From Isoetes taiwanensis (lineage: Eukaryota; Streptophyta; Lycopodiopsida; Isoetales; Isoetaceae), in contig JAJEKV010000001.1 in NCBI GenBank assembly GCA_021234155.1, forward strand, positions 38,114,826 through 38,178,825: DNA of 64,000 nucleotides, written 5' to 3'. Each line of letters opens with the position of its first letter. Position 1 is the first letter of the stretch. A model generated the notes under the pieces. The model worked only from the letters and a program-made list of their open reading frames with translations. It had not been told where the DNA came from and did not search any database. Positions 33,910 to 56,065 of this stretch are shown in pieces. The position numbers were made by a program, and so were the translations under genes.

Positions 33910-34217
33910 GTGGATAACACACTTGGTTTATTTGATGATTTGCAAATGCAACACCACCAAGTAGTTGCGATAAAGACCAGTACACTTCATGCATGCAATT
34001 TAATCTTCATGAGGCAACCGTGCGTCTCCGATTGCAGTGTTATGGTGGAATTATCTTATAGTTGTCTTAAATATAGTTTCCCTTTAGTTATTGATTTCTA
34101 TAGCTATGCAGATTAGTCTTCAAGTTTCTTTAGTCCGTTTATGCTAATTATGTGGCAATTTGATGGGATTGCAGGTCATGGAGAAAGACAAAGTAGTTGA
34201 ATTTGCTGATGCTCTGA
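33910..34217 (+). pseudogene. COG3: COG3 (conserved oligomeric Golgi subunit 3), left exon fragments
   Basis: COG3 is a core subunit of the Golgi tethering complex. After a CCTCAG acceptor, 33910-33995 reads VDNTLGLFDDLQMQHHQVVA then IKTSTLHAC, matching the family region before FAEALRSKL, with one residue missing in TLH(D)AC. The next exon follows ATTGCAG at 34174 and reads VMEKDKVVEFADAL up to 34217, where it is cut by the LTR at 34218. The first exon lacks a clear GT donor. The gene resumes at 49187 on the other side of the retroelement block. Confidence 0.85.
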
Positions 34218-34788
34218 TGTGACGTCCCCTGCCTCTTATACGATGCACACATCGTATTCGAAGACGGAACATTCCCCCTGACAGTCAACTGGCAGGGGCC
34301 ATCCACCTGACTCCACTCCCAGTGGAATGAGCCAGCAAGGGAAGAGTGGATGTGTCATTCACCCGTCTCTCATCGGGTCGACCTATCTGCGGAAGCGTGA
34401 ATAAACATGAGCACATAACACAATATAACAATACAATCACCTCGAAGGGTGAAACATCATATCCTCATCAATATAACAACATGAACATGAACATCAACAG
34501 CAGAGGGAATTCCTACCCAGGGCTCAGACTCAAGGGTATGACTGACGGCTTGGGCCTCCAGAAGTCGTTGCAGACAGAATTCATGGCACATGGATTTGGC
34601 TGGCATATGAACATGGCTAAGGGTAGTCCACTCCATCCGCCCCTCCTGTGCACACTTTGCAGATTGGGTTGAAAAGTGTTGGGACCGGACCGTAGCCTGC
34701 CAGGTACATAGCCTAAAGGGCTACTACTGGGTTGCATCTCCCCAACCCTGATGAGGCAGGAAGTGAGTCACCTCTCCTCCAGGGACTC
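34218..34788 (-). repeat. Left LTR copy (A), truncated
   Basis: Matches the first about 570 bases of the LTRs at 40025 and 47597 (for example GAATTCCTACCCAGGGCTCA), then breaks at about 34788 directly into internal sequence equivalent to 44518 onward. The missing part covers most of the LTR and the gag-chromodomain end. Confidence 0.9.
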
Positions 34789-35030
34789 TATGTTGGGTAT
34801 GTCTTGCAGTGCTATCTTGAGGGCCATGCTTGGTGCAAAATATCCTATGCAAGGTGGGAGCTCTACTAGAGAAGGCCCTATCTTGGCATGGAACTCAGGG
34901 GGTGGCATTGATGGTGGCCTCCATATCAACCTCCTTCTGGAAGACGGCGAAGACGGAGTTGATGTCGGCCTCTCCCACATGAGCTGTGGCACTGTACCAT
35001 CGCCTAAATACAGTGGTTGCCATGGTCTAT
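34789..35030 (-). pseudogene. Truncated copy of the unknown retroelement ORF
   Basis: Corresponds to the N-terminal part of the ORF at 43221-44774 (shares EFHAKIGPSLVELPPCIGYF), with an internal deletion of about 25 bases near 34900 that shifts frame. Belongs to internal region 1. Confidence 0.8.
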
Positions 35031-35285
35031 GAGCAGCTGGGGATATCAAATAGATGGGAAAGCGCCTTAGGGGCCTGGAAAATCGGCTTGGAGTGAGGTG
35101 GTCTACTTATAGGCAAAATCCTAATTTTGGGAGATTTTAGGGTTTGGGGAAAACCTGTGATTCTAAGATATTGCTATGCAAAAGACAGGTTAATCATACT
35201 AAGGAGTGCATCCTAAGGGTCCTATTGCAATAAATTCCGTCTAATTTGGTGAAAGTTAAGCCAAGTTAGGACAATTTAAGTGTGA

Positions 35286-35357
35286 CCACTCACACAGTGC
35301 GCGAGGCGCGCTTTTAAGCATGGGCAAAAGTGGTCTGGGCGCACTCTGTGAGGGGTG
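35286..35357. repeat. Long hairpin element, copy 1 of 9
   Basis: Outer arms CTCACACAGTGCGC and GCGCACTCTGTGAG pair at 13 of 14 positions; an inner stem forms between CTTTTA-type and CAAAAG-type words. All copies share this architecture, and they lie in the spacers of the retroelement. The sequence is nearly self-complementary, so a hairpin could form in RNA from either strand. Confidence 0.85.
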
Positions 35358-35490
35358 GGGCCTTGTTTGGGTCAAAGATGATGCCAAACATGCAAACTAA
35401 GGATAGAATCCTGCATATCTCGTCGAGATAGGTGGGATTGTGTCGTTACTTGCTTCATTTGGACAAGTTTTGGCCTAGATCAATGCTCGA

Positions 35491-35562
35491 CCACTCACAC
35501 AGTGGGCGGGGAGCACTTTTGAGCTTGGTCAAAACTGGTCTTGGCGCACTCTGTGAGGGGTG
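35491..35562. repeat. Long hairpin element, copy 2 of 9
   Basis: Same architecture, with AGTGGGCGGG in the left arm and a C in place of G in the inner right arm (TCAAAACTG). Confidence 0.85.
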
Positions 35563-35604
35563 AGGCCGGTGCTTCGATCGGCTCCCGAAAGTAACCAGAG
35601 TTAA

Positions 35605-37300
35605 CCAACGGGTTCGCCAAGCGAACCCCAAAAAACCGCCAGCGAACTCGGGCCGGTCGCCAAAGCGAACCCGCAACCCCGACGTGGCAAATTGTCAGCG
35701 GAGTGATGACATGCGTGGCATTAGCTACCGGGTTCGCCCAAGCGAATCCAAACTCGGGTTTGGCATATGTGTGGTGGCAGAGGTGGCAGTGGCAGTGGTG
35801 GCAGATCGCTTCCCTGCCGGGTTTGCCCAGGCGAACCCACCGGCGGGGTCGGGTGGCAGGCAGAGCAGACGATCAGAGCAATTATGGCGCCCAGATCGAA
35901 GCCAAAAATAACACTGGGAGCTCGACCGGTTCTCTACTATCATCAGCTGTTTACGCGTTGAATCTTGAAGAGCTAGCTGGTTTCCGAGTAATGTGACCAT
36001 GGCAGATCCAATATGGTTCGTGATATGAATAAATTTTCTGCAGCTTGGAAGCGTATTGAGGCCGGATTTTAAGACCGAGATTTGTTAGACTTTTGGGTAT
36101 GGCGTATTTAGGCAAAAGAAGAAATCCAGGAGATGATGAAGTAAATGAAAACGATTGCCAAGGTTCCAAGGGTTTGGATGAGGGTCGACGGGCGAAAAAG
36201 ATGTGAATCGCCAAGCATGGGCTACTGGCGGATTGATTGACCAATGGATGAGGCTAAATCCTTCCACGCCATTAAATTTTCAGCAAAGGGTAATGGGTCG
36301 CGGCGGCATTGCAAGAGATTAGAGGTTATGATTCGGAAGAAATATGTATCAGCCCCCGGGGGCAAAATCAACCTCAAATCAAATATAATCCTGAGATGCA
36401 ACCACGGATGCAGGTACGAGATTCAAACCCAACGGCGGATGCAAGCTCAGTGACCTATTTCTTTTTTTGGCCCGGATGATTAGCCCGCCGGCTTCTCGGA
36501 GCTCTTGCTTTTCTTACGGAGCGGATGCCCCCGGCCACAATGGGTTCGTCTAAACAAACCCGGTAGGCTGTACCGGCGTTCTACCCCGTCACCTACGCCC
36601 GCACGGCTGGCCGTGTCCGCGTCAAGACTTTCGATTGGGCCCGCCCAGCGAACCCGGTGAACGACTTCGCCATCCGCCTGCGATACGCCATGCCCGCCAC
36701 ACGACGGCTGACCGGGTTTGGGTTAAGCCCAAAGCGAACCGGTAGGGAATGCCACGGGCATCCAGCGCCCGCACCGGCCGATCCCGCCATGTCGTCCGCG
36801 GGTTCGCCTAATTTTTGGGGTTCTGTAACGTTCCTAACCGACATGCCCTTAACCAACTGGGCAAAACCATCTAGACGTTTATGAGTAGTCGCTTCTACCT
36901 ATTTATGCCGGTGTCTCGGGAACGCCCCACAGGCACATTCAAGGTTCGAATACTCGAGTGGTCTACCATGGGCCCGTTACAGTCTCTCCCACTAGAACTA
37001 TGCTCGTCCTCGAGCATCGAAGGCTATACCATGTCACAATGATTACCAAGTCTTTGCAAATTACCCATGCATATAGGCACCCATGGAGACTCGAACTCGA
37101 GACCTACTCTGATACCAACTGTAACGTTCCTAACCGACATGCCCTTAACCAACTGGGCAAAACCGTCTAGACGTTTATGAGTAGTCGCTTCTACCCATTT
37201 ATGCCGGTGTCTCGGGAACGCCCCACAGGCACATTCAAGGTTCGAATACTCGAGTGGTCTACCATGGGCCCATTACAGGTTCGCCTGGGCGAACCCGCTT
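35605..37300. repeat. Dispersed palindrome family P2 (GGGTTCGCC/GGCGAACCC)
   Basis: Copies or half copies of GGGTTCGC-N2-4-GCGAACCC occur near 35609, 35667, 35730, 35818, 36541, 36640, 36714, 36799 and 37278. Several are near-perfect 18-22 base palindromes. They differ in the loop and in T/C changes (GGGTTTGCC). They are confined to the insertion in internal region 1. Confidence 0.75.
36824..37277 (-). mobile_element. TRIM (miniature LTR retroelement), complete
   Basis: Two 158-base LTRs, 36824-36981 and 37120-37277 (TGTAACGTTCC ... TTACA), differ at only three positions by eye. Before the right LTR is TCTGATACCA (37108-37117), the inverse of a tRNA-Met primer-binding site. After the left LTR is GTCTCTCCCACT, the inverse of a purine tract. 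The element is thus on the minus strand with a 138-base non-coding interior. GGTTC flanks both sides (36819-36823 and 37278-37282), a perfect 5-bp target duplication. It carries no gene and would rely on enzymes of another element. Confidence 0.93.
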
Positions 37301-38008
37301 GGTTTGCGAAGTTAGTTTCGGGAGCAGGGTTGCCCTTAAGGCCATATCTGCATAGGCGTGATTTAGAAGATGAGGCGAATCATAAGCTTTCTATATTAAT
37401 TTTGTAGGCGATTACTTTTTGCGACTTGAACTGTTTCATAGAAACTCTGGCGAACCTTGCCAACGTTAATGTGGTAATTGAAATAAATAAATTAGATGTC
37501 AATTCACATGCAACTTACAGGATTAAGGAAACCTATTATGTTTAGCAAAATTTGAGTATTCTACTATGGTCCACTAGAGCTAGCAAACAATTACTTGATC
37601 TACAATGTTGGTAAGGGGATAATCTATGATCCTAAACACTTAGATCCATGGAACTGGAGGCGAAACTCTAGATCTGAGCTTAAGAATGCATGGCTAATTT
37701 AAGAAAGGCGGGCGGACGAAATGGTAAAACTTTGGCGAAAAAATATAATTTATTTTCAAAAGTAACCTATTCAGGTTTAGTATCTCATTTTCGAAAATAT
37801 TCAAAATATAGCCATTTGGCTATAAATAGCCCCTTAAGGGCAACCCTGTTCGGGAGCCAATAAAGTGTGCGGGGTGGGGCTCCATTTGAGTTTGGGTTGG
37901 CCAATTTCTACAATCTAAGGGTCAAATCCTACTAAACAAAATGAGCTGAGTCGAATGGTGTTCTTACTTTCTGCATTTGGACAAGTTTTGGCATAGATCA
38001 GTGCTCAA

Positions 38009-38080
38009 CTACTCACACAGTGCGCGGGGAGCACTTTTGAGCCTGGTCAAAAGTGGTCTGGGCGCACTCTGTGAGGGGTG
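38009..38080. repeat. Long hairpin element, copy 3 of 9
   Basis: Same outer arms and a perfect inner stem CACTTTTGA/TCAAAAGTG. It lies about 140 bases past the stop of the H3-like gene at 38221 (minus-strand direction). Confidence 0.9.
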
Positions 38081-38220
38081 GGGCCAAAAACATTGAGTTT
38101 TGATCCAAATTTGTTAGTTTCAAATGCAGAACTTAGTAACACACCCCACTTAAACATGTTTTAACACATTAATTCAACAAAATTATAAATTTGTATTTAT
38201 AAAAATGATTTACAACAGAC

Positions 38221-39419
38221 TTAATAGTATTCCTTCTTTATGTATTTAGCTAGCTTCAAGTCGTTGGGCATGTATGTCACCCTTTTGGCATGGATTGCAC
38301 ACGCTACCGAGTTTTCAAAACTTTGTACTACGTGCTGCTCGGCTGCCTCCTGGAGCACTAGTAGCATGTCATCCGTGACCCTCTTTGTGTTGTCGAATTC
38401 TTGTAATATTTCGCGAGTGAGTCTCGCGAAGGGGGCTCTTGGTATCAAAAGTCCATAGCTCCTCTGGAAATGTCTGATCTCCCGAGCAGCTCTGGAAAAA
38501 CGTGAGTCAGCCTTTCTTTTAACCGGCTTCCTCGGAGGTGCTGGTCTCTCTAGGGGCGGCTTCAGTGTGCTCTTCTTTGTTGGCCATCCTCCCTCCACAT
38601 AGGTGACCTTGTGCTTCTCGTAATACTTGGAGTACGCCTCGTACATTTTCATGTACTGGGTGTACTCCTTGACCTTCTTCCTGCACTCAAGATCCTGCTT
38701 GAGTACATATGACTCCCGCTGCGGCCTCGGCTTCTTGTTGTCATTGCTGGGGTGCTTCGGTGAAGGCCACCTAGGGTACGGAGGTACCTCTGCTACCTGC
38801 TCCTCCTCCTCGTTTGCGGGATTCGAGGGTCCTGAGCCCTCAGCTGGGGAGGGAACCCTTCTTTCCTCATCTGACTCAGTGTCAGATGAGGGGCCGGAGC
38901 TTCGAGTGCGGCTCTGAATGGCGGCGCCTTTGGCGGGGTCGTCTTCAATTTCCGCCGTGTCTTTGGCGGGCCTTGGGGGCTTTTTTCCTTATGCGCTTTC
39001 TTCTTCAAGCGCTCCTCCCTGTGCTTCCTCCTCTCCTCTTCTGCCTCCTCTCTTCAGTTTTCGGCGGTCCTCCTTCTCTCGCCGGCGCTCCTCCTTTGTC
39101 TTCTTTACTTCAGTTCCTTCGCCCTCCCGTTTTCTCTTCTTTTCCTTTTTCGCCAGGTTCTCGAGCTCCCTACTCAACATTTCTGCAGCTTCTTCTTCTA
39201 TAACTTCTTCAGCCCCCTCCTCAAGGTCTTGGGGCCGATCCTTCTCCTGGTGCTCAGGGGCCTCCTCTTGGGCATCTGGGTTGGGGCTGAAACCTCCTGC
39301 TCCTCTGTTCCCTTTGGCTGGCTCGAGCCTGGCGGCCCTTCTGTTAAGCCCCTAGCTCTTGAAATTTGGTATGTCGTGGGGGGCACTACGATCCTGGCGG
39401 TTTGTTTGGTGCGGGCCAT
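38221..39419 (-). pseudogene. Histone H3-like gene of the retroelement, copy 1
   Basis: Minus strand. It starts at 39419 with MARTKQTARIVVPP, whose first nine residues equal the H3 tail through Arg8; Lys9 is replaced by Ile. A long Glu/Lys-rich linker follows (KEKKRKREGEGTEVKKTKEE). The last 144 codons (38652-38221) are uninterrupted. They include KPVKRKADSRFSRAAREIRH, SYGLLIPRAPFARLTREILQ, LQEAAEQHVVQSFE and CAIHAKRVTYMPNDLKLA, which align with H3 helices alpha-N to alpha-3 with the same loop-1 length as canonical H3. At least two frameshifts interrupt the linker. The predicted full product is about 400 residues, three times normal H3. It could mark or occupy chromatin, or bind readers of the H3 tail; this is inference. 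An alternative origin is a CENH3-like variant. Confidence 0.9.
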
Positions 39420-39622
39420 GTTTTGGTTTGAAGCAATCTGAGCTCGGCTTCGGGGACGAGCTGTTCTCTGAAGGCGCTGAGGACAAATGAGGAACCCTAA
39501 TTTTCTATTTATAGGTTGGAATAATTTAGGGTTTGGACCTGCAATTCCATATTAGGCCAATCTAGAAGGTATTAGTGTAGATATGAGGAGTACATTAGGT
39601 TTATTTAGCCAAAAAGTATCCA

Positions 39623-39669
39623 CCACTCATATAGTGCGCGGGGAGCACTTTTGAGCATGGTCAAAAGTG
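39623..39669. repeat. Long hairpin element, copy 4 of 9 (right arm deleted)
   Basis: Left arm and inner stem are present. The sequence then jumps into TATGTAATAAG, a deletion of roughly 90 bases relative to the equivalent copy at 47098. Confidence 0.85.
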
Positions 39670-39738
39670 TATGTAATAAGCTGAACTGTACTGTCAAATT
39701 AGCTAAATTATGCATCTAACTAGGTCAACATGGGTCCA

Positions 39739-39809
39739 CCACTCACACAGTGCGCGAGGAGCAATTCTAAGCATGGTCAAAATTGGTCTGGACGCACTCT
39801 GTGAGGGGT
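39739..39809. repeat. Long hairpin element, copy 5 of 9
   Basis: Inner arms are CAATTCTAA and TCAAAATTG. Relative to CACTTTTGA/TCAAAAGTG, a paired C-G is replaced by A-T, which preserves pairing. Confidence 0.85.
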
Positions 39810-40010
39810 CACCTCTTTTGGACAATTTAGGTTGGGTTTTTGCTAAAACTTATTACTAACTTAGCATTAACCTATTTACTACACTAGAAATAGGGAAAAA
39901 AATTTCCAATTTTCGAGGTTCCTGCTTGGGTGGCTATTTCCCAAGACTTGAGTCTATTGTTAGTCCTATGGGAAAAATGGTCAGTGCTCGATCTTGGTCT
40001 ACCAATATCA

Positions 40011-40023
40011 TGCTCTGATACCA
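40011..40023 (-). other. Primer-binding site of internal region 1
   Basis: TGCTCTGATACCA is the inverse of TGGTATCAGAGCA, complementary to the 3' end of plant initiator tRNA-Met. It lies one base from the LTR at 40025. Confidence 0.95.
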
Positions 40024-40024
40024 C

Positions 40025-41546
40025 TGTGACGTCCCCTGCTTCTTATACGATGCACACATCGTACCCTGACAGCCAACTGGCAGGGGCCATCCACCTGACT
40101 CCACTCCCAGTGGAATGAGCCAGCAAGGGAAGAGTGGATGTGTCATTCACCCGTCTCTCATCGGGTCGACCTATCTGCGGAAGCATGAATAAACATGAGC
40201 ACATAACACAATATAACAATACAATCACCTCGAAGGGTAAACATATATCCTCATCAATATAACAACATCAACATGAACATCAACAGCAGAGGGAATTCCT
40301 ACCCAGGGCTCAGACTCAAGGGTATGACTGACGGCTTGGGCCTCCAGAAGTCGTTGCAGACAGAATTCATGGCACATGGATTTGGCTGGCATATGAACAT
40401 GGCCAAGGGTAGTCCACTCCATCCGCCCCTCCTGTGCATACTTTGCGTATTGGGTTGAAAAGTGTTGGGACCGGACCGTAGCCTGCCAGGTGCATAGCCT
40501 AAAGGGCTACTACTGGGTTGCATCTCCCCAGCCCTGATGAGGCAGGAAGTGAGTCGCCTCTCCTCCAGGGACCTCCATGCCCAACACAGGTGACTAGAGG
40601 GCCACTGCCCTTATTCGACTTGAACCCAATGGAGAGTGACGCATCACCCCATGGATGTCGAGCTCATGCCTTGCCCACACGCAGTGGCAAGCCCTAGTCT
40701 ACGGGGATCCCCGATAGGCTTTACACACCAGAGGGATCGTTCTGTGTTGGGACAAGTACCCCATTGTTCTGCCAGTCTAGCCCCTCAACCCACAACCCGG
40801 TGGGCTCCTGTGCACAGGCCGCATTAATTGGGAGCTAGTAGGCTACCTATGATCATCTGCTACACAAGCTTTAGGCCTCTACCCCCCTTCCCAATACATG
40901 GAGGTCACAGAGTGAAATACCAACATCATCACAGACTGAAATGAAGAACATCATCTAATCTATCTACCTAAACATCTAGAGTTAGGTTCCTTAGTTAGGG
41001 CTTATGATCTTGGGATCTACAAGGCCTCTATGGCTGAATGAATATGCTAAACTACCTTACTGCCTAGCCTAAAGGCGGCTTGACCTGCTCCAGATCCTCG
41101 GAATGCATCCATGTCCCTGATCTTGCTGAAGATGGTTGCTACTCGACGATCTGTTGTGCAAAGGCGGCTTTACAGAGCCTGGCAATGCGAATTTGGTTCC
41201 TAGCTTGGCCGGAATGGCTCAAGGGAACCCTAAATGCGAAAAGGGAAAGGAGCTCTATGAAAACCCTAAAATGCAAAGAGAAGAAAAGGGTTTAGGGTTT
41301 AAGGGGAAGCCCTTATATAGAAACCCTTAGGGTTAGGTTAAACATTGGCAAATGGGGTTTAGCCATTTGGCAATGGGGTCCATGGGGTTTATAATTGTGT
41401 ATGTTTATTTAACATGCACAATATTCGAAGTTGCCCCCCTAGGGCAACCTATTACGGCCACCAAATACATGTCAGCCGTGACATGTACGGGTGACGTGGT
41501 AGTATAATATACGTATTCGGGACGTATATTATGCTGGAACGTCACA
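40025..41546 (-). repeat. Middle LTR copy (B), 1522 bp
   Basis: Starts TGTGACGTCC and ends GGAACGTCACA. It serves as the 3' LTR of internal region 2 (purine tract at 41547) and as the 5' LTR of internal region 1 (PBS at 40011). It lacks about 20 bases (TTCGAAGACGGA region) present in the other two copies. Confidence 0.93.
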
Positions 41547-41559
41547 TTCTCCCCACCTT
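41547..41559 (-). other. Polypurine tract of internal region 2
   Basis: Read on the minus strand, AAGGTGGGGAGAA directly precedes the 3' LTR (TGTGACGTTCC). This is where plus-strand DNA synthesis would start. Confidence 0.85.
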
Positions 41560-42231
41560 GACTTGATGCTGTCCTCAGCATCACGCGTCTCCCCACCTTG
41601 GAAACCTGCATATCCTGCACTCACATTCAATGTACATACAATTTTATAATGCAATTACTTCAAGGTAATATTTTAATTAATCATAAAATATCCTTGTATA
41701 ATATTGTACTATGGTGAGAGGCTCTTTCGTCCTCTACTTCATCATCTATTATTCACAAAAATTTTATGGCTTATACTATAATTATAAACATAGTTCCAAA
41801 ATTTCCTACTTAAGGCTCTTATCGTGTCCTCACAACACATTATGACAAAATTATGTGTTGCGAGTCTTCGTAGTGCGATCTCCCTGTCGCTCAACTCCTC
41901 TATTGGCCTGCAGGTCCAACACTACGTTAGTACACATTTAATTATTATAAAGGTTGGTTGTTAGGGAACCACCCATTAAATACAATTACATGAATGCAAG
42001 GCATATCTCCCGGCATAGGAAGATTACGTTTCTTCCATCATGGCCGTGGAGACAGCGCCCTATCATGCCTAGGATGCCAACTCATGCCTACACCTTTAGT
42101 TGCCTTTGGCGTGGAGGATAGTGTCCTTCCCGTATTTGGGCGTGAAGGATAGGGTCCTCCCCGTGATAGGCATTGGCCAAAGGTGCTTTCCTATCAATGC
42201 ATACCTGAATGACCTCCTTTCTCTCGAGGTC

Positions 42232-42258
42232 GTCTACTTCCGTGGGACGGAAGTAGAC
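42232..42258. repeat. Perfect 12-bp-stem hairpin
   Basis: GTCTACTTCCGT-GGG-ACGGAAGTAGAC. It lies just past the chromodomain end of the retroelement. Only one copy was noticed in the window. Confidence 0.9.
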
Positions 42259-42289
42259 TTTTTAATCTACCTTCCACTCACCTATCGAG

Positions 42290-43003
42290 TCGATGTCGAC
42301 TACTTCGGTGACGAGCCGACCCTTGCATTGCTCCATGAATTCGGGGTACTACTTCTCCAGATCTGATTGTAGTACCCACGTAGCGTCTTCCACAGGTAAG
42401 TGAGTCCATTTCACAAGGTATTGGAGAAATTTGGATCTTCTTGTCTTCTTATAAGCCCTGTCAAGCTGCTTAGCCCATGTGCTTTGGAGTAGCCTTTCCA
42501 CCAAATCCTGGCGGCTCCCTTCAAGTTGGCTGTAGCTACTCTGCCTTTGTCCTTGTCCTTCATGCCATTGGCATTTCCATACTCATCTCGTCCAGCCATG
42601 CTTCTGCTTCCATTCCGGACCTGCTATCCCCTGAAAATTGCTCCAGTTTTCTTGCTTTCCATACATTACTGAGCGCTGAGTCAACCTTTTTCTGATAGTC
42701 AGATTGTGCCCTGCCCCTATCATGGTTTGGACCCTCCCGACGGTCTTGCCTCTCTTCCTCCTGCTCTTTCGATCCGGAGTCAGAGTCTGAACTAGAGTCG
42801 GAGGAGCCGCCCGAGCTAGGAGATCTTCTCCGGCTTCGCTTCCTTTGTTGCACTGTTCGTCCGGCTGGTGTTTCTGGCAATGGCACATTCTGATCCTGTC
42901 CTTCTGTTGCTGCTCCTGCCAGCAATGCTCTTATCTCATGAATGTCGGACCTATTCTGGGATAGCTCTTCCTCTGGTGTTGCTGCATCAAACTCTTGGTA
43001 CAT
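42290..43003 (-). pseudogene. Ty3/gypsy gag joined to chromodomain, pol deleted
   Basis: Minus strand. From 43003: MYQEFDAATPEEELSQNRSD, an Arg/Ser-rich stretch (RKRSRRRSPSSGGSSDSSSD), then LEQFSGDSRSGMEAEAWLDE and ANLKGAARIWWKG, the capsid-type gag motif of Ty3/gypsy elements. Past a frame change, the sequence continues near 42470 with YKKTRRSKFLQYLVKWTHLP and VEDATWV, the C-terminal chromodomain of chromovirus integrases, then a stop at about 42359. Protease, reverse transcriptase, RNase H and the integrase core are absent: about 3 kb is missing between the WWKG and chromodomain pieces. The element cannot move without enzymes from elsewhere. The chromodomain in related integrases binds methylated histone and steers integration. 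Confidence 0.85.
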
Positions 43004-43220
43004 ATTTCTTGGCTGGAAACGCCTTGGTGGAGTACGCTCTTGGTCATGATGTCCTTGTTGTTCAACATTTCTAGGTACTCTACATTAGATTATACTCTGA
43101 TAATTAGTTCATTGTTTTGTCATTGCATTGGTTGTTTGATGATATAATTGTGGGGACAAAATATATCAAGAGAACATAATTGAGATTATCATTTACATTC
43201 ATGAATATACATTCAAGGAG

Positions 43221-44774
43221 TTAGTCATAGAAATTGAAAATATTTTTAATTCTTATTCTTGAAATTTCTTCAAATAGTCGGGGTCGTCCTCCAAAAATTT
43301 CTTGACTTGGGCTGTGCCGATTGTTTGCCCTAGGTTCCTGAGGATATTTGTGGCCGTGGCTCGTGCCTCCTTGAAGTGCGGTCACCAAGCCTTCAATCCT
43401 CCTTTCCGATGTATAGGCTGCAGTCACTGCCAATCTGCCCTGCCGTCTATAGGGGACTGCGAAGTCGAAGATGCTCAATGCTATTGTTCTCTTGACGAGG
43501 ATGACATGGTCGATGTTTGGGGCCATACGAGCATAACTTCTGACTCCTGAGAGAGCAATGAGCATGAAGACTCCTTCTTCACCCCGTGGGCTGAATTGGC
43601 GGTGTATAACCGCTATCCTTCCATCTATGAGTAAAGGAAGGTAGAACCTAAGGGCTTTGTCATGCCCTGCCTCTCTGCCTGATGTGAAGGCTGCTCTGTG
43701 TCTTCCGGAGTACTCATCAACCGGTACTTCCACCATCTCTCTGTAGTCGCGGTACATGGAATGTGTCAGGTTGACGCTTCTTTCAGGTAATGCTAGTGCC
43801 GATGCCGATGTGCTAGGTAGGAGTGTGGACGTTGATTTTTCCTTGATTCCCATGCGCTCCTGTACCGCCAAGAACTCCTCTTCCTACGACAACTCTCGCT
43901 CAGCCATCATCTGTCTGATGCCGGTGTAGGCTTCAATATCTGTCGATGTCTGGCCGGTATATAGTCTGGCTTCCCTTATGCTGATGGGAAAGTCCTGAAT
44001 TTCTCTGTCGATGAAGTCGTCGAGATCAGGGTCTTGCCGTAGGAGATGCAGAAGTTCGTCTACTCTGTAGCCCCTGTCTCGGCACTCGGAGAGGTTCTTG
44101 ATATCATGGAGGCTTAAGTATGCCTCTCCTTGTATAATCACTGGGGTCAAGCTTGTAATTCCTTGCCCAAGTGGTGGGACTATTCTTGTGGCTCTGAGCC
44201 CTTCTTCAAAGCTTTGGAGCTGCTGCTCTGCTTGATGCCTTTCTTGTACTAGGTCGATGTCCTCTGTGTCCGAGTCGCATCCTTTCTCTTCTTCTTCCTC
44301 TGCCTCTTCGTATGCAAGGCGCATCTGCTCTTCTTCTGCTGCTGCCATGGCCATTGGCTCTATGTCTAAGGGTTGCACAGATGGTTCTCCTATCTGAGTT
44401 TGGGCTCGAAGAGATTGGAAAATAGCTACGACTGCATTGTAAGAAAAGTATCTCCTCCTATTGACGGATATGGACATGTAATTAGGTAAGCGACTAGCCT
44501 TGTTTTCTAGGTACTTATCTATGTTGGGTATGTCTTGCAGTGCTATCTTGAGGGCCATGCTTGGTGCAAAATATCCTATGCAAGGTGGGAGCTCTACTAG
44601 AGAAGGCCCTATCTTGGCATGGAACTCAGACATAATGTCTTGGTAGAAATAGGTGGCATTGATGGTGGCCTCCACATCAACCTCCTTCTGGAAGACGGCG
44701 AAGATGGAGTTGATGTCGGCCTCTCCCACATGAGCTGTGGCGCTGTACCATCGCCTCAATGCAGTGGTTGCCAT
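43221..44774 (-). CDS. Unknown retroelement ORF, 517 sense codons plus one internal amber codon
   Basis: One frame runs from ATG at 44774 (MATTALRRWYSATAHVGEAD) to a stop at 43221. It is interrupted only by TAG at 43884-43886 (…RELS-stop-EEEFLAVQERM…). The first 296 codons have an acidic coiled-coil-like middle (AEEEQMRLAYEEAEEEEEKG) and helical segments. The second part includes YSGRHRAAFTSGREAGHDKA and LRFYLPLLIDGRIAVIHRQF. I do not recognise either part. It lies between the H3-like gene and gag, and internal region 1 has a truncated copy. The length of open frame on both sides of one TAG suggests either readthrough or a very recent nonsense mutation. Confidence 0.6.
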
Positions 44775-44998
44775 GGTCTATGAGCAGCTGGGGATATCAA
44801 ATAGATGGGGAAGCGCCTTAGGGGCCTGGAAAATCGGCCTGGAGTGAGGAGCAAAGGTGTAGGATGCAAATGAGGGTTGTGGTCTACTTAAAGGCAAAAC
44901 CCTAATTTTGGGAGATTTTAAGGTTTGGGGAAAACCTATGATTCTAAGGTATTGCTATGCAAAAGACAGGTTAATCTGCTAAGGAGTGCATCCTAAGG

Positions 44999-45055
44999 GC
45001 GGGGAGCACTTTTGAGCCTGGTCAAAACTGGTCTGGGCGCACTCTGTGAGGGGTG
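44999..45055. repeat. Long hairpin element, copy 6 of 9 (left arm deleted)
   Basis: Only the inner stem region and the right arm (GCGCACTCTGTGAG) remain. It lies upstream of the unknown ORF. Confidence 0.8.
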
Positions 45056-45191
45056 GAACACCATTTGAGTTTGGGTTGGCCAATTTCTACAATCTAAGGG
45101 TCAAATCCTACTAAACAAAGTGAGCTGAGTCGAATGGTGTCCTTACTTTCTGCATTTGGACAAGTTTTGGCATAGAGCAGTGCTCGACCGC

Positions 45192-45442
45192 TCCAAGGGG
45201 GGTTCACTCGTGTATAAGGGGGATATGCCATCTGCGTGCATGGGGTGGCAAAAAACCCCCCTGTATACGGATTTTTAAAAGCAAATTTTGACCCCTTCCG
45301 AATAAAAATTACCTAGGATAGTGCAAAAAATACCAGAAAAAGGACCCCCTGCCGACCGTATATGTACGAAAATGGGTCCAAAAAACCCCCTCCCCGTGCA
45401 TGCATATGGGTTATACGCCCAAAACTGTGAACCCCCCTTGGA
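45192..45442. mobile_element. 251-bp MITE with 16-bp perfect inverted ends
   Basis: TCCAAGGGGGGTTCAC at the left end and its exact inverse at the right. Interior is non-coding with runs of C and A. The equivalent sites at 35480-35495 and about 38000 lack it (GCTCGACC directly followed by ACTCACAC), so it inserted at the edge of a hairpin element after the internal regions diverged. A duplicated ACC(G/A)CT is possible at the borders. Confidence 0.85.
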
Positions 45443-45516
45443 CCACTCACACAGTGCGCGGGGAGCACTTTTGAGCCTGGTCAAAAGTGGTCTGAGCGCA
45501 CTCTGTGAGGGGGGTG
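45443..45516. repeat. Long hairpin element, copy 7 of 9
   Basis: Complete arms and perfect inner stem, with two extra G near the right end. It is the counterpart of copy 3, about 140 bases past the stop of the second H3-like gene. Confidence 0.9.
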
Positions 45517-45656
45517 GGGCCAAAAACACTGAGTTTTGATCCAAATTTGTTAGTTTCAAATGCAGAACTTAGTAATACACCCCACTTAAACATGTTTTAA
45601 CACATTAATTCAACAAAATTATAAATTTGTATTTACAAAAATGATTTACAACAGAC

Positions 45657-46886
45657 TTAATAGTATTCCTTCTTTATGTATTTAGCTAGCTTTAAGTCCT
45701 TGGGCATGCATGTCACCCTTTTGGCATGGATTGCACACGCTACCGAGTTTTCAAAACTTTGTACTACGTGCTGCTCGGCTGCCTCCTGGAGCGCTAGTAG
45801 CATGTCATCCGTGACCCTCTTTGCGTTGTCGAATTCTTGTAATATTTCGTGAGTGAGTCTCACGAAGGGGGCTCTTGGTATCAAAAGTCCATAGCTCCTC
45901 TGGAAATGTCTGATCTCCCGAGCAGCTCTGGAAAAACGTGAGTCAGCCTTTCATTTAACCGGCTTCCTCGGAGGTGTTGGTCTCTCTAGGGGCGGCTTCA
46001 GTGTGTTCTTCTTTGTTGGCCGTCCTCCCTTCACGTAGGTGACCTTGTGCTCCTCGTAATACTTGGAGTACGCCTCGTACATTTTTATGTACTGGGTGTA
46101 CTCCTTGACCTTCTTCCTGTACTCAAGATCCTGCTTGAGTACATATGACTTCCGCTGCGGCCTCGGCTTCTTGTTGTCATTGCTCGAGTGCTTCGGTGAA
46201 GGCCACCTAGTGTACGGGGGTACCTCTGCTACCTGCTCCTCATTCGCGTTTGCTGGGTTCGAGGGTCCTGAGCCCTCAGCTGGGGAGGGAACCCTTCTTT
46301 CCTCATCGACTCGGTCGGATGAGGATGGAAAACTTCTCGTGGTCGGCTCTGAATGGCGGCGATTTGGCCGGGGCCGTCTTCAATTTCCGCTTCGTGTCTT
46401 TTGGCAGTGCAGGGGCTTTCTCCTTGTCTGCTTTCTTCTTCAAGCGCTCCTCCCTGCGCTTCCTCCTCTCCTCCTTCTTATGCCTCCTCTCTTCAGTTTT
46501 CGGCGTTCCTCCTTCTCTCGCCGGTGCTCCTCCTTTGTCTTCTTTACTTCAGTTCCTTCGCCCTCCCGTTTTCTCTTCTTTTCCTTTTTCGCCAGGTTCA
46601 CGAGCTCCCTCTGGAGCTCCTTACTCAACATTTCTGCAGCTTCTTCTTCTGTAACTTCTTCAGCCCCCTCCTCAAGGTCTTGGGGCCGATGCTCCTCCTG
46701 GTGCTCAGGGGCCTGGTGCTCAGGGGCCTCCTCTTGGGCATCTGGGTTGGGCTGAGCCTCCTGCTCCTCCTGTTCCCGCCTGGCTCGCTCCTGAGCCTGG
46801 CAGGCCTTCTGTTGAGCTGCTAGCTCTTGGGCGCTGGTATGACCAGGGGGAACTACGATACTGGCATTTTGTTTGGTGCGGGCCAT
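45657..46886 (-). pseudogene. Histone H3-like gene of the retroelement, copy 2
   Basis: Minus strand; starts at 46886 with MARTKQNASIVVPP (an upstream in-frame ATG at 46967 is also possible). The linker is better preserved here: QKACQAQERARREQEEQEAQ, then EEVTEEEAAEMLSKELQREL and KEKKRKREGEGTEVKKTKEE. A frameshift near 46500 leads to a false stop at 46440, and a nonsense change (AGA to TGA, about 45950) lies before the fold. The fold itself (45884-45657, plus the upstream LLIPRAPF region) reads LQEAAEQHVVQSFENSVACA and IHAKRVTCMPKDLKLAKYIK. It differs from copy 1 by a few substitutions. Both copies sit at the same position behind the PBS, so the gene belongs to the element. Confidence 0.9.
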
Positions 46887-47097
46887 GTTTTGGTTTGAAG
46901 CAATCTGAGCTCGGGCGCCTAAAAATCGTCTTCGGGACGAGCTGTTCTCTGAAGGCGCTGAGGACAAATGAGGAACCCTAATTTTCTATTTATAGGTTGG
47001 GATAATTTCGGGTTTGGACCTGCAATTCCATATTAGGCCAATCTAGAAGGTATTAGTGTAGATATGAGGAGTACATTAGGTTTATTTAGCCAATCCA

Positions 47098-47167
47098 CCA
47101 CTCACACAGTGCGAGGGGAGCACTTTTGAGCATGGTCAAAAGTGGTCTGGGCGCACTCTGTGAGGGA
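47098..47167. repeat. Long hairpin element, copy 8 of 9
   Basis: Complete; upstream of H3-like copy 2. Counterpart of the deleted copy at 39623. Confidence 0.9.
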
Positions 47168-47310
47168 TCACCTCCTTTTGGGTCCAATTTTCAATCTACA
47201 AGGGCTTTCTTAGTGTTTTAACATGCAAAACTAGCTAAATCTATGTAATAAGCTGAACTGTACTGTCAGATTAGCTAAATTATGCATCTAACTAGGTCAA
47301 CATGGGTCCA

Positions 47311-47381
47311 CCACTCACACAGTGCACGAGGAGCAATTCTGAGCATGGTCAAAATTGGTCTGGGCTCACTCTGTGAGGGGT
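47311..47381. repeat. Long hairpin element, copy 9 of 9
   Basis: Complete; nearest to the PBS. Inner arms CAATTCTGA/TCAAAATTG carry the same paired substitution as copy 5. Confidence 0.88.
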
Positions 47382-47582
47382 CACCTCTTTTGGACAATTT
47401 AGGTTGGGTTTTTGCTAAAACTTATTACTAACTGAGCATTAACCTATTTACTACACTAGAAATTGGAAAAAAAACTTCCAATTTTTGAGGTTCCTGCTTG
47501 GGTGGCTATTTCCCAAGACTTGAGTCTACTGTTAGTCCTATAGGAAAAATGGTCAGTGCTCGATCTTGGTCTACCAGGATCA

Positions 47583-47595
47583 TGCTCTGATACCA
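47583..47595 (-). other. Primer-binding site of internal region 2
   Basis: TGCTCTGATACCA, inverse of the initiator tRNA-Met primer-binding sequence, one base from the LTR at 47597. Confidence 0.95.
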
Positions 47596-47596
47596 C

Positions 47597-49186
47597 TGTG
47601 ACGTCCCCTGCTTCTTATACGATGCACACATCGTATTCGAAGACGGAGCATTCCCCCTGACAGCCAACTGGTAGGGGCCATCCACCTGACTCCACTCCTA
47701 GTGGAATGAGCCAGCAAGGGAAGAGTGGATGTGTCATTCACCCGTCTCCCATCGGGTCGACCTATCTGCGGAAGCGTGAATAAACATGAGCACATAACAC
47801 AATATAACAATACAATCACCTCGAAGGGTGAAACATCATATCCTCATCAATATAACAACATCAACATGAACATCAACAGCAGAGGGAATTCCTACCCAGG
47901 GCTCAGACTCAAGGGTATGACTGACGGCTTGGGCCTCCAGAAGTCGTTGCAGACAGAATTCATGGCACATGGATTTGGCTGGCATATGAACATGGCTAAG
48001 AGTAGTCCACTCCATCCGCCCCTCCTGTGCACACTTTGCAGATTGGGTTGAAAAGTGTTGGGACTGGACCGTAGCCTGCCAGGTGCATAGCCTAAAGGGC
48101 TACTACTGGGTTGCATCTCCCCAGCCCTGATGAGGCAGGAAGTGAGTCGCCTCTCCTCCAGGGACTTCCATGCCCAACACAAGTGACTAGAGGGCCACTG
48201 CCCTTATTCGACTTGAACCCAATGGAGAGTGATGCATCACTCCATGGGTGTCGAGCTCATGCCTTGCCCACACGCAGTGGCAAGCCATTAAGCCTAGTCC
48301 ACAGGGATCCCCGGTAGGCTTTACACACCAGAGGGATCGTTCTTTGTTGGGACAAGTATCCCATTGTTCTGCCGGTCTAGCCCCTCAACCCACAACCCGG
48401 TGGGCTCCTGTGCACAGGCTGCATTAATTGGGAGCTAGTAGGCTACCTATGATCATCTGCTACACAAGCTTTAGGCCTCTACCCCCCTTCCCAATACATG
48501 GAGGTCACAGAGTGAAATACCAACATCATCACATACTGAAATGAAGAACATCATCTAATCTATCTACCTAAACATGTAGAGTTAGGTTCCTTAGTTAGGG
48601 CTTATGATCTTGGGATCTACAAGGCCTCTATGGCTGAATGAATATGCTAAACTACCTTACTGCCTAGCCCAAAGGCGGCTTTGCACAACAGAATGGCTGA
48701 TTACCTGGTCCTTGACCTGCTCCAGATCCTCGGAATGCATCCATGTCCCTGATCTTGCTGAAAATGGCTGCTACTCGACGATCTGTTGTGCAAAGGCGGC
48801 TTTACAGAGCCTGGCAATGCGAATTTGGTTCCTAGCTTGGTCGGAATGGCTCAAGGGAACCCTAAATGCGAAAAGGGAAAGGAGCTCTATGAAAACCCTA
48901 AAATGCAAAGAGAAGAAAAGGGTTTATGGTTTAGGGTTTAAGGGGGAGCCCTTATATAGAAACCCTTAGGGTTAGGTTTAATATTGGCAAATGGGGTTTA
49001 GCCATTTGGCAATGGGGTCCATGGGGTTTATAATTGTGTATGTTTATTTAACATGCACAATATTCGAAGTTGCCCCCCTAGGTGCAACCTATTATGGCCA
49101 CCAAGTACATGTCATCCGTGACATGTACGGGTGACGTGGCAGTATAATATACGTATTCGGGGCATATATTATGCTGGAATGTCACA
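47597..49186 (-). repeat. Right LTR copy (C), 1590 bp
   Basis: Longest copy, TGTGACGTCC to GGAATGTCACA. It is the 5' LTR of the block (minus strand) and so would hold its promoter. Small indels relative to copy B show that the copies have diverged by more than a few bases. Confidence 0.93.
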
Positions 49187-50790: not shown

Positions 50791-51215
50791 ATTGGGGGAT
50801 GGATAGAGGCCACGATTTGTCAGTATTGCAGCATATTTTTTATCTACGGCTGTGCAGTTTTAGGATTTGAGGTAGGATTTGAGGGACACCTGAGCATAGT
50901 TAGACGGTGTGGATTTTATGGGAATCTTGATGGAAGGTGGAGATGTGATCTCTGGCTTCTTGACAGCGCCTAGAGGCAGCAAAGCGAAGTAGAGGGGAAT
51001 TTTGTCCCTCTTTTTCCTCGGCATTGGCCAGTGCTCCAATTTCTGGGTTTGTTTTCACAATCCTTTCCTTCTCTATGCCTTCGTAAAAAACAAGGGCTAT
51101 GGCTTGTTTGGCTTTTCTGTTATGATGGGGCAAGAGATAATGGTAACCAGAAGCATTTGTTAGTGGACAAAGAATTAGTGCTAGTTTGTTTCAAGTTGTT
51201 ATTGTAGAAGGTTCA

Positions 51216-51439
51216 TGCTATATGCTAAGGACGTGGAGTCCAAAGATGGCTTTTAGGCCAAAGAGGGCCTTTAGTCCAAAAGGGGGCCTATGGTCCAAAG
51301 AGGGCTTTGGTCCAAAGATGGACCAAAGGGGCGTGCATGCTATATAGTAGCTCGGGGGAGAGCTCTGGGGCAGCTGTGTCATAGCTGAGGGCTCGTGGTT
51401 GGGTGGTGAGATAGCGTGCCACGTCAAGTGTCTGTCTTA
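51216..51439 (+). repeat. 5' LTR
   Basis: Contains short imperfect repeats of GGCCAAAGAGGGCCTTTAGT type (51245-51330), a likely U3 enhancer array, and TATATAG at 51341-51347, a candidate TATA box. Identical to the 3' LTR. Confidence 0.97.
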
Positions 51440-51440
51440 G

Positions 51441-51453
51441 TGGTATCAGAGCA
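51441..51453 (+). other. Primer-binding site
   Basis: TGGTATCAGAGCA, complementary to the 3' end of plant initiator tRNA-Met, one base after the LTR. Confidence 0.97.
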
Positions 51454-51463
51454 ACAAGTTTCG

Positions 51464-52326
51464 ATGGCCGGTTCCCCTGCCAATGTTAACTTGGAAGATG
51501 AAGAGCTCAAGGAAAAACTTTTTGAGTTAGAGCATGATAATTCGCTCATGAGAGAAAAAACTTTTACCGCCGAGAGGCTCGAATTATGAGTCGCAAGAAT
51601 TGGATTCTCTGCTTGGCCTTGAGGTGGCGAATTGCGGCAAAGTCGCGCGAGGCGCCCACGTAGTGGCATCAAAAGCGGTGCCAATGTCAAAATTGAATTC
51701 AAAAAGTATTCACGCCACTAGTGATGCGGATGAATTATTCAGCGTGGCCGGGATTTGAATTCATATTTTGCTAAGACTAAGGATGACGAGGACACTTTCG
51801 GTTATATTTTCTTTGGCGTCATCCGGATGGGGTTGCAAAGGACCTGGTGGCTCGATATCCGGAAGAAACCCGGTCGATCAACCTATTGTTACCTTTGCGG
51901 AATTTGAAAAGCAAATCAAAAATCGTTTTTGGGTCATAATTGGGGAGCGATCTTATCGCTGAATGGAATAAGTTGACCCAACAAAACATGGAAACTATTC
52001 GATCTTTTTTCGCCGACGAAGTTTTAAAGAAAGGACTTGGCTTAGTAAAAATGATCTTTGAGAAGTCCGAAAAACTCATGGGTGGGGTGCATCGTTGGGT
52101 ACGGGCAAAGCTCGACCTGCAAGTTGCCAATCTTTCTTTTGGTGAGCTCTGTAAGATGGCAGAGAAAGTAGAGGAGGAAGGTTTGGCCCTTACTGAAGCC
52201 ATTAATGCTCAACGTGGCCTCAAAGTTTCTATGAAAGAGGCGAGTGGTTTTCGGGATAAATCAATGGGATTTGCTCCAGGGTCTGGGCCATTCAAACGGC
52301 CGCCGCGACACGTGACGCTGCGATAA
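51464..52326 (+). pseudogene. Gag, frameshifted
   Basis: ATG at 51464 opens MAGSPANVNLEDEELKEKLF, a coiled-coil-like start that ends at TGA 51587-51589. After frame changes, FAEFEKQIKNRFW appears near 51897. Open frame 51940-52326 carries AEWNKLTQQNMETIRSFFAD and LSFGELCKMAEKVEEEGLAL, the gag core. At least two frameshifts separate these pieces. Confidence 0.85.
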
Positions 52327-52333
52327 TGAACTG

Positions 52334-52750
52334 TTGGGGCCAAAGAGCCAAAGGAATCGTGATCAAGCACGCAAGAAGCGGCTTATGCGAGAAAATAAGT
52401 GTTTTGTTTGTTATTCAACTGATCATAAGTTTTATGAATGCCCTACTTATTTGGAAAAGAAGAAAGGGGAACGAAAGGAAGCTACACCTACTCTTAAGTC
52501 TGGGACTAAGAAAGAGGATAAAAGTAAGAAAGTAGCTTCTGTTCGCGGAGATGGAAAAGGGAAGAAGGTGGCTACGATGGAAAAATCGGATATGGATTAC
52601 GTTGAGAATAGTAGTCTCTTACGATTTTGGGCTACTATTCAAGATCAAAAAGTACATGTCCTATTCGATCCAGGGCAAAGTGAGTTTGATTTTATTTCGC
52701 TTTCGCTTGGTGAAAGAACTCAAATTAACTTCTATTCCTTTATCAAGTGA
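52334..52750 (+). pseudogene. Gag zinc knuckle and protease N-terminal part
   Basis: CFVCYSTDHKFYEC fits the CX2CX4HX4C nucleocapsid knuckle. A Lys-rich stretch follows. Then VLFDPGQSEFDFIS sits where the aspartic protease D-T/S-G-A-S motif is expected, with Pro in place of Thr/Ser. The frame ends at 52750, and the protease C-terminal part (IILGMPWHKAINPLIDW) resumes in the next frame, so the protease is split. Confidence 0.85.
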
Positions 52751-52771
52751 TGTAGAATTAGCTACGCTTTC

Positions 52772-54379: not shown

Positions 54380-55743
54380 AATGGGTTGCTTTTATGCAGC
54401 AATATGATTTCTCAGTGGATTATCGTCCTGGTAAAGAGAATGTTGTAGCTGATGCTTTAAGTAGACGTTATGCAGTTTGTTCTCTTTCTATAGCACAATC
54501 CAACCATTTGGAGGAAATGAAGCCATTGTATGCCACTGACCCTGATTATAAGGATATTTGGTTGTTAGCTCAAAATGGCAATGCATATGGATATAAGATC
54601 GTTAATGGGTTCTTGTATAAAGGTCCAAAGCTATGCATTGTTCGGAATTTTCGATCACTTATTCTTAAAGAAGTCCATGATGCACCTACGGCGGGTCATC
54701 GGGGCGTGGGGGCAACTTTGGCAAAGCTTGAACCATACTTTATTTGGCCTGGATTACGGAGAGATGTTTTGGTTCATATTCGCATTGTGTTACTTGTCAA
54801 CGATAAAGAAAGTTTAACAAGAAAACCTCATGGTGTTCCTTTATCCTTGCCTATTAGGAGGCAAAGTGGGAACAGATCACTATGGATTTTATTGTTGGTC
54901 TTCCTCCCGGTTCTCAAGAACACCATCATTTGGACAATTGTTGATTGTTTAACTAAGCACGCTCATTTTATTCCTTGTTCGGATAAGTTGACGGCTTATA
55001 GTGCGGCTACGCTCTTTATCAAAGAGATATTTAGGTTACATGGTTTGCCAAAGATTATTGTATCCGATCGTGATACAAAGTTTACTAGTAAATTCTGGAA
55101 GGCATTATTTATGCAATTGGGGACAGAGTTGAGGTTCTCCACTGCTTTTCACCCAGAAACTGATGGACAATCCGAGGTGGTCAATAAAGTTATTTGTTCC
55201 ATCTTAAGGGGTTTGTCAATGAACATCAAGGTCATTGGGAAGAGTATTTGCCTATTGCTGAATTTGTGTATAATAATACCTATCGGGTCTACCATAAAGA
55301 TGACTCCTTTTCAAAGCGGTCTATGGTCACCAGGCGGGAGCCACTCTTCGAAAGTGTGTGAAGATGTTCCAGTGGCCGATGATTTGGTTATTGAGCATAA
55401 GGATCTCATAGACTTGCTTCAAGTCAGATCACGAGATGCTCAAGCATCTTTTGCAAATAAATCATCTAAGTTGCGGCAACCAATAGTTTTTAAGGAAGGA
55501 GATTGGGTATGGATGAGGATCCATAAAGGCCACTTTAAGAAAGATGCGCGCAAGAAGGATCTTAAGTTGGCACCCCGTTTCCATGGACCATTTCAAGTTA
55601 TTAAAGTGGTCAATGAGAATGCATATCAATTAAGATTGCCTCAAGGTTGGAAAATGCATGATGTAGTGAATGTTTCATTCCTAAAGGCTTATCATGGTAA
55701 GGAGTTACCTCAACTTGGGAGGTTAACTGTTTTAATTGATTGA
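54376..55743 (+). pseudogene. Integrase part of pol
   Basis: Starts with the RNase H tail (VDYRPGKENVVADALSRR). The zinc finger keeps its two His (HDAPTAGH), but its Cys-X2-Cys is in another frame (HCVTCQR near 54785). The core keeps D (WTIVDCLTKHAHF), D (IIVSDRDTKFTSKFW) and E (GQSEVVN). A stretch from about 55200 to 55330 is again out of frame. The C-terminal part (FHGPFQVIKVVNENAYQLRL) leads to the chromodomain. Confidence 0.93.
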
Positions 55744-56008: not shown

Positions 56009-56065
56009 AGGTATTTAGATACCCTTTTGCAGCAGAGGACTGCTGCAATGTCAAGAGGGGGGGAA

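Follow-up and report, generated by a model that had tools for sequence, protein, structure and literature searches.

Whether a histone H3-like gene lodged in a retroelement is a working gene of that element or a dead, transduced fragment is the question raised by a locus of Isoetes taiwanensis. The window (the whole stretch of 64,000 nucleotides analysed here, from contig JAJEKV010000001.1) contains an array of long terminal repeats (LTRs) and internal regions of one LTR element, with two minus-strand copies of such a gene at 39419-38221 and 46886-45657. A sequence-only reading had described both copies as starting with MARTKQ and ending in an H3 fold, and their coordinates and fold were confirmed. 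Selection has maintained the gene in a chromovirus lineage, so that it is not a dead transduction, although both window copies are dead remnants. In our view, the H3-like frame probably represents the selected first gene of a chromodomain-bearing Ty3/gypsy lineage, encoding an H3 variant proposed to enter nucleosomes. Host genomes silence retroelements largely via histone H3 marks, and elements supplying their own H3-fold protein would contest silencing on H3 itself.

Purifying selection on the H3 fold

The gene of copy 1 starts with MARTKQTARI, Lys9 being replaced by Ile. Its 143-codon fold end (38652-38221) is an open frame that was matched to the Pfam Histone family (PF00125) at 3e-23 and to solved H3 histones as the best matches in the PDB (1.8e-22), which excludes a chance resemblance to H3. 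The gene of copy 2 starts with MARTKQNASI and carries three internal stops in the MARTKQ frame. The genes reported by the sequence-only reading are thus present, but neither of them is one open frame. Since the two fold ends (143 codons) differ by 12 amino-acid changes, 2 silent changes and 1 stop, both window copies have decayed without visible constraint.

The assembly containing the window (1,658,258,908 bases, 1.66 Gb, in 1110 contigs) was searched with the 143-residue window fold, which gave at least 150 scored matches, the best 150 of 9606 first-look candidates. The listed matches were 72-100% identical to the query and spread over many contigs, so that the gene is not confined to this array, and 18 of the 150 contained an open frame of at least 438 codons. 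Loci of the window's class (class 1) were collected by rank (30 loci, L001-L030, including both window copies), by open frames of 345-489 codons (20 further loci, L033-L052) and from one full region (L031, L032).

Among the 435 pairs of ranked loci, the ratio of nonsynonymous to synonymous divergence (dN/dS) in the fold was 1.67 at dS <0.05 (2 pairs), decreased with distance and amounted to 0.064 for the 260 pairs at dS 0.5-2. This fall from close to distant pairs indicates constraint while the family was active and decay after insertion. After removal of the window copies (28 loci, 378 pairs), an uncorrected pN/pS of 0.118 was obtained (0.109-0.125 in a bootstrap over loci), with 0.097, 0.065 and 0.364 differences per site at codon positions 1, 2 and 3, respectively. 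The fold was without a stop in 23 of the 30 ranked loci. For unbroken frames, a set of 22 loci (L022, L031, L033-L052) was reduced to the 16 with an in-frame MA[RC]TK start, among which L040 and L046 appear alike. These 16 frames yielded a dN/dS of 0.057 in the fold (63 of 120 pairs saturated and omitted) and of 0.15 in the middle of the protein (49 of 120 pairs omitted). Purifying selection on the class-1 fold is strong, with a dN/dS of about 0.06, and the lack of such selection that would mark a dead pseudogene was not observed.

A host H3 or CENH3 messenger might instead have been transduced as a passenger, its frame being carried along unused. This would fit the broken state of the window copies and the mostly amino-acid-changing differences of their fold ends, as well as the dN/dS above 1 in the 2 closest genomic pairs; captured H3 copies are also held by fungal hAT elements and are inactivated in Pseudocercospora fijiensis, according to the available text of PMC6710886. 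It is contradicted by the fold dN/dS of 0.03-0.06 among distant copies, over a mean dS of 0.7-1.1, and by the retention of an H3 fold in two families (see below), and we consider it very improbable. Dead transduction was rejected, being largely refuted by purifying selection on the fold.

Full-size elements and a sister family

A full class-1 copy was located at C1089:8432609-8446006 (minus strand). It is 13.4 kb long, has paired LTRs that are 97.3% alike and shows 72-88% identity where it matches the window. Its H3 gene is unbroken, encodes 397 residues with the start MARTKQTARK and was matched to PF00125 at 1.5e-22. The gene is accompanied by part of a second extra gene (219 residues), by a gag (Retrotrans_gag, 1.1e-4, with 22.7 bits just below the cut-off of 24.1) and by a pol with reverse transcriptase (RT; RVT_1, 3.2e-23) and Ty3-type RNase H (4.1e-35) domains, an integrase-like piece that matched no Pfam family at E 0.01, and an SH3_Tf2-1 domain (1.1e-9) with a Chromo domain (7.7e-11) behind it. 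With its LTRs, the primer site and purine tract seen in the window, Ty3 RT and RNase H, and chromodomain, the class-1 element has the features of a chromovirus; LTRs and a Ty3 pol are present, and the terminal inverted repeats and transposase of hAT elements are not. The proposal that the H3 mimic is element cargo is supported by the number of genomic matches, by this full-size LTR copy carrying the gene and by the low dN/dS of the fold. The argument originally given for it, the presence of the gene in both internal regions, led to the right conclusion but is weak alone, because a tandem array can arise by duplication.

A search of the genome with Arabidopsis H3.3 also gave at least 150 scored matches. 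Those listed comprised 15 full-length host H3 genes at 97-99% identity (host H3.3 being 99% identical to the query) and 135 matches at 72-87%, which started between H3 residues 3 and 36 and many of which sit in frames of 420-567 codons. Of the 135, 14 with frames of 421-567 codons were picked and fetched, and each of these has a nearly canonical H3 fold at its end. The 10 fetched loci with a start by pattern were analysed as class 2. Their frames share 71-72 of 82 fold residues with host H3.3, versus 41-45 of 82 in the 16 class-1 frames. The fold recognised in the sequence-only reading is real, but that of class 1 is not simply canonical H3, and the near-canonical sister family had not been foreseen. 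Beyond MA-x-T, the class-2 N-terminus is unrelated to H3 (MA[INT]T in 9 of the 10 frames, MARTKG in one). The dN/dS of class 2 was 0.027 in the fold (7 of 45 pairs saturated) and 0.11 in the middle (15 of 45 pairs left out).

One class-2 region (C908:21536247-21550711; L077, L078) was read as a full element. Its LTRs are 93.8% alike, and an unbroken H3-fold frame (PF00125, 4.9e-41) forms its first gene, accompanied by a second extra gene and by gag-protease, RT, RNase H, integrase (rve, 6.4e-8; Integrase_H2C2, 4.4e-21) and chromodomain (Chromo, 1e-7) frames. The RNase H domains of the two classes are 84% identical to each other, versus 48-49% to that of a Ty3/gypsy element at 51215-56291 of the window. 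Between the second extra genes, by contrast, there is little likeness (E 0.055, about 25% identity over 80 residues), so that they evolve far faster than RNase H.

As to the source of the class-1 fold, a derivation from host CENH3 is possible but doubtful; it would be compatible with the other explanations and may serve to mark element chromatin as centromere-like. Reference rows for three H3s and for three CENH3s of other plants were compared with the window copies; the Arabidopsis CENH3 row agrees at 7 of 7 residues named in the available text of PMC4564284. Over 82 fold columns, the window copies differ from all three H3s at 36 sites, 10 of which match at least one plant CENH3 (3.2 expected, P 0.0007) and 7 at least two (1.1 expected), with expected counts from a simple substitution null. 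R63P, L65A, Q85T and V89L match all three plant CENH3s and are found in 15, 16, 15 and 16 of the 16 class-1 frames, respectively. The column of R63 corresponds to P102 of Arabidopsis CENH3, which is among the 5 of 7 residues invariant across 53 angiosperm sequences in the accessible part of PMC4564284, and this invariance was counted in favour of a CENH3 origin. A tree set class 1 on the plant-CENH3 side (support 87/84), in weak agreement, and an earlier, smaller tree gave the same placement (88/92). Other features argue for H3. Loop 1 has the length of that in H3 and is 1-2 residues shorter than in the plant CENH3 rows; likeness to H3 is also seen in the QTAR(K) tail and at Q76, F78 and P121; E77, present in 14 of 16 class-1 frames, also occurs in host H3; and the reverse test found agreement with H3 at 3 of 29 sites (1.1 expected, P 0.085). 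Joining class 1 to class 2 (p 0.18), or to class 2 together with H3 (0.21), was not rejected by the approximately unbiased (AU) test, and the smaller tree gave 0.22 and 0.16 for union with H3. A CENH3 origin of the window's class is suggested by the CENH3-like residues but unproven.

Tail, expression unit and role of the protein

The N-terminal tail was sampled in 49 loci (L003-L031, L033-L052), of which 38 have an MA[RC]TK start; the search pattern fixes all positions through K4 except R/C, which is R in 34 copies and C in 4. Beyond the pattern, Q5 is found in 36, T6 in 35, A7 in 33 and R8 in 35 of the 38 copies. As A1, R2, T3, Q5, T6, A7 and R8 are each encoded by at least two synonymous codons among the 16 unbroken class-1 frames, the ARTKQTAR tail is conserved as protein. 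Position 9 (codon 10) is Lys in 17, Ile in 15 and another residue in 6 copies, so that the loss of Lys9 described in the sequence-only reading holds for the window copies but not family-wide. The tail thus splits naturally between Lys and Ile at the site of a main heterochromatin mark. A canonical tail (ARTKQTARKSTGGK through K36) joined to the fold was not found: class 1 keeps residues 1-8 or 1-9, followed by an unrelated middle, with K4 kept, K9 sometimes kept and the K14-K36 stretch absent.

A tail of this kind could act as a decoy that sequesters the host's writers, readers or chaperones of H3 and weakens silencing without any entry into chromatin. Its conservation at the protein level amid synonymous change would be explained, as would the end of the class-1 likeness to the H3 tail after residue 8 or 9. 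Class 2, however, does without most of the tail and yet keeps the fold most strictly, and a decoy role is quite unlikely.

The H3 gene is preceded by a TATA-like site, TATAAATAG, in both window copies (Table 1). Of 38 genomic copies, 28 have such a site at most 160 nt upstream of the start codon (at 109 nt in 22 of the 28), and a hairpin core is found upstream of the gene in 35 of 38. In the window, hairpins flank the H3 gene and the second extra gene (open reading frame 2, ORF2), and folding z values of -3.4 to -5.3 were obtained for 7 of the 8; in their covariation analysis, one pair was changed on both sides, which did not exceed shuffled controls. The conserved TATA-like site and upstream hairpin core suggest that the H3 gene may be transcribed apart from the LTR promoter.

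In both families the H3 gene precedes gag and pol ends in a chromodomain, an arrangement that would also suit a non-nucleosomal role in targeting or packaging, in which the H3-fold protein stays with the particle or integrase and reaches chromatin readers or the chromodomain. The long charged middle and the ARTKQTAR tail, the stretch bound by host H3K4 readers, could serve the same end. We regard such a role as unlikely: in both classes, dN/dS is lower in the fold than in the middle, as expected if histone partners matter, and the TATA-like site suggests expression separate from gag-pol.

The element is laid out as LTR, primer site, H3-fold gene behind a TATA-like site, second extra gene, gag-pol with chromodomain, and LTR, and selection on active copies preserves the fold and, in class 1, the ARTKQTAR tail. 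Under the favoured explanation of a selected, nucleosome-entering H3 variant, the protein would pair with host H4, enter nucleosomes and be deposited, probably on the DNA of the element or at its insertion targets. There the host H3 tail with most of its mark sites would be exchanged for a tail bearing K4 (and K9 in about half of the copies) without K14-K36. Weaker silencing of the element could result, or the chromodomain integrase could find a preferred nucleosome. C110, H113, K115, R116 and D123 are kept in all 16 class-1 and all 10 class-2 frames; C110, H113, R116 and D123 are residues that we take to act at the H3-H3 interface. An H4-pairing histone fits this conservation and the stronger constraint on the fold than on the middle in both classes.

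Several points weigh against this explanation. None of the 16 class-1 frames retains R63 or F84 of H3, and a role outside nucleosomes is conceivable for the middle and tail. Both window copies and many genomic copies are broken, and a single full element was read per class, that of class 1 with its pol and second extra gene in broken pieces and that of class 2 with an insertion-like stretch of about 1.3 kb between its RT and RNase H frames. Structure models are poor: AlphaFold gave a predicted local distance difference test (pLDDT) score of 56 for the fold end of copy 1 and a mean of 35 for ORF2, and Foldseek returned no match to the fold-end model at E <=0.001, so that the folding of the H3-like protein is a prediction from its sequence. 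Regarding the selection estimates, 111 of the 435 pairs of ranked loci fell outside the bins, 63 of the 120 unbroken class-1 fold pairs were lost to saturation, and dN was lowered by the choice of loci, all of which came from protein searches, with class-1 frames picked as long and open. Search and selection bias alone cannot yield a dS of 0.7-1.1 with a dN of 0.04-0.07.

On a broader view, which we hold to be plausible without rating it as probable, the chromovirus lineage would make its own nucleosomes: two H3 variants, one near canonical and one CENH3-like with an ARTKQTAR(K) tail, would join host H4 in place of host H3, on the element's DNA or where it inserts, as a counter-silencing or targeting system that selection has maintained over long element evolution. 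The host writes its silencing marks on H3, and this genomic parasite appears to supply a version of that protein itself. Whether the protein is in nucleosomes, where, and with what effect on H3K9 methylation or insertion sites are questions made testable by the at least 150 class-1 matches and at least 135 from the second search (14 examined, all class 2). The families also form a natural experiment on how far H3 diverges under selection and on whether CENH3-like residues arise outside centromeres.

The window array and known systems

The array reads LTR C, internal region 2, LTR B, internal region 1 and a partial LTR A, all on the minus strand (Table 1). LTRs C and B start with TGTGAC, and the LTRs close with GTCACA; C and B differ by 42 substitutions at 1521 sites. 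The LTRs, the primer-binding site TGGTATCAGAGC (which we take to be of the tRNA-Met type) after LTRs C and B, and the purine tract ahead of LTR B identify the structure as an LTR element in a tandem LTR-internal-LTR-internal-LTR form. The primer sites had been placed right at the H3-like genes; they are present, but some 600 and 700 nt separate them from the start codons. The LTRs differ by 2-3%, and the final 660 nt of the H3 genes of the window copies by 5% (Fisher P about 0.01), which hints at an older divergence without showing it. The idea that the tandem array proves two insertions to have occurred independently was downgraded. A candidate target-site duplication, GCAGA/TCAGA, agrees at 4 of 5 positions, and its flank also resembles a primer-site remnant. 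The flank past LTR A (34198-34217) opens with TCAGAGCAT, like the primer site minus its first letters, and LTR A may once have continued into a further tandem unit.

Table 1. Positions of element features in the window
Feature	Copy	Position	Strand	Basis or remark
LTR C (5' LTR of copy 2)	2	47597..49186	-	LTR comparison; TGTGAC...GTCACA
Primer-binding site TGGTATCAGAGC	2	47584..47595	-	sequence; follows LTR C
Hairpin repeat upstream of H3 gene	2	47307..47391	-	z -3.6
Second hairpin repeat upstream of H3 gene	2	47094..47178	-	z -3.7
TATA-like site TATAAATAG	2	46986..46994	-	ahead of H3 gene
H3-like gene	2	45657..46886	-	MARTKQ tail, Glu/Lys-rich middle, H3 fold; broken
Hairpin repeat downstream of H3 gene	2	45439..45523	-	z -4.8
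Second extra gene (ORF2), family without known relatives	2	43221..44774	-	one in-frame TAG at 43886-43884
gag piece, frameshifted	2	42480..43003	-	Ty3_capsid E 0.017, below cut-off
Chromodomain piece	2	42330..42459	-	Pfam Chromo 2.2e-9; close behind gag, intervening pol missing
Purine tract ahead of LTR B		41547..41559	-	sequence
LTR B (3' LTR of copy 2 and 5' LTR of copy 1)	2 and 1	40025..41546	-	LTR comparison
Primer-binding site TGGTATCAGAGC	1	40012..40023	-	sequence; follows LTR B
Hairpin repeat upstream of H3 gene	1	39735..39819	-	z -5.1
TATA-like site TATAAATAG	1	39505..39513	-	ahead of H3 gene
H3-like gene	1	38221..39419	-	H3 residues 1-8 exact, then frameshifts with stops
Hairpin repeat downstream of H3 gene	1	38005..38089	-	z -5.3
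ORF2 5' piece	1	34788..35023	-	cut at junction with LTR A
LTR A, final 570 nt only		34218..34787	-	LTR comparison

ORF2 gave no Pfam match up to E 10, and its best match in the PDB had an E of 0.17. A minus-strand scan of 34200-38100 and 41550-44999 for RT, RNase H, protease and integrase gave none at E <=0.1. The chromodomain noted in the sequence-only reading is real, but only a piece of it is encoded, in copy 2. A full cage for methylated H3K9 was rejected for this domain, since, in an alignment to HP1, the third aromatic position is Leu both in the window and in the class-1 copy of full size; Leu at this position matches the group II chromodomain type in the available text of PMC3350952.

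Further insertions were seen in and near the array. Within the hairpin region of copy 2 only, a short insertion at 45190-45441 has 15-nt inverted ends (CCAAGGGGGGTTCAC) and resembles a miniature inverted-repeat transposable element (MITE). In copy 1, a stretch at 35580-37867 with the ends GGCTCCCGAA/TTCGGGAGCC encloses a smaller one with CAGGGTTGCCCTTAAGG-type ends; it also contains, at 36823-37285, a pair of 167-nt direct repeats with a TGGTATCAGAG site, like a terminal-repeat retrotransposon in miniature (TRIM). The plus-strand Ty3/gypsy element at 51215-56291 has 227-nt LTRs identical to each other and is therefore a young insertion. Rfam and tRNA scans of the window gave no matches. Scans for the fold in IMG/VR and prokaryote genomes gave 21 and 154 pattern matches, respectively, none of which was confirmed.

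No LTR retrotransposon with a histone H3 gene was present among the literature matches listed (titles and abstract openings, with most subscription papers and bioRxiv outside the scope). The nearest precedent found is the capture of H3 by hAT DNA transposons in P. fijiensis and its kin, as described in the available text of PMC6710886; for the H3L of Pyrenophora tritici-repentis, expressed sequence tags exist (PMC6710886 and PMC3538342, parts available). As in Isoetes, a mobile element bears and amplifies an H3-fold frame. The fungal carriers are DNA transposons with inverted repeats, whereas the Isoetes carrier is an LTR element; moreover, the fungal copies are inactivated by repeat-induced point mutation (RIP) in P. 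fijiensis and recent and near-identical in P. tritici-repentis, and long-term purifying selection on element copies is not mentioned in the available parts of the two papers.

Plant chromoviruses share with the Isoetes elements the LTRs, primer site, gag, RT, RNase H and C-terminal chromodomain, as well as an integrase, which has Pfam matches in class 2 and is a candidate piece in class 1. The Isoetes elements add two genes ahead of gag, the first of them for an H3-fold protein. A survey of plant chromoviruses mentions extra open reading frames and, in its available text, no histone gene (PMC6317226). Orchid Gypsy elements with an open reading frame for an N6-methyladenosine (m6A) RNA demethylase are likewise LTR elements that gained and kept a host-type regulatory domain, although their cargo is an RNA demethylase and that of the Isoetes elements a core histone (PMC9289625, available part). 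Plant CENH3 resembles the class-1 protein in its MARTK start, divergent tail and H3 fold with P63, A65, T85 and L89; unlike CENH3, the Isoetes protein has a loop 1 that is not lengthened and a tail that continues QTAR(K), and its gene belongs to a retroelement, at least 150 scored matches being present in the genome.

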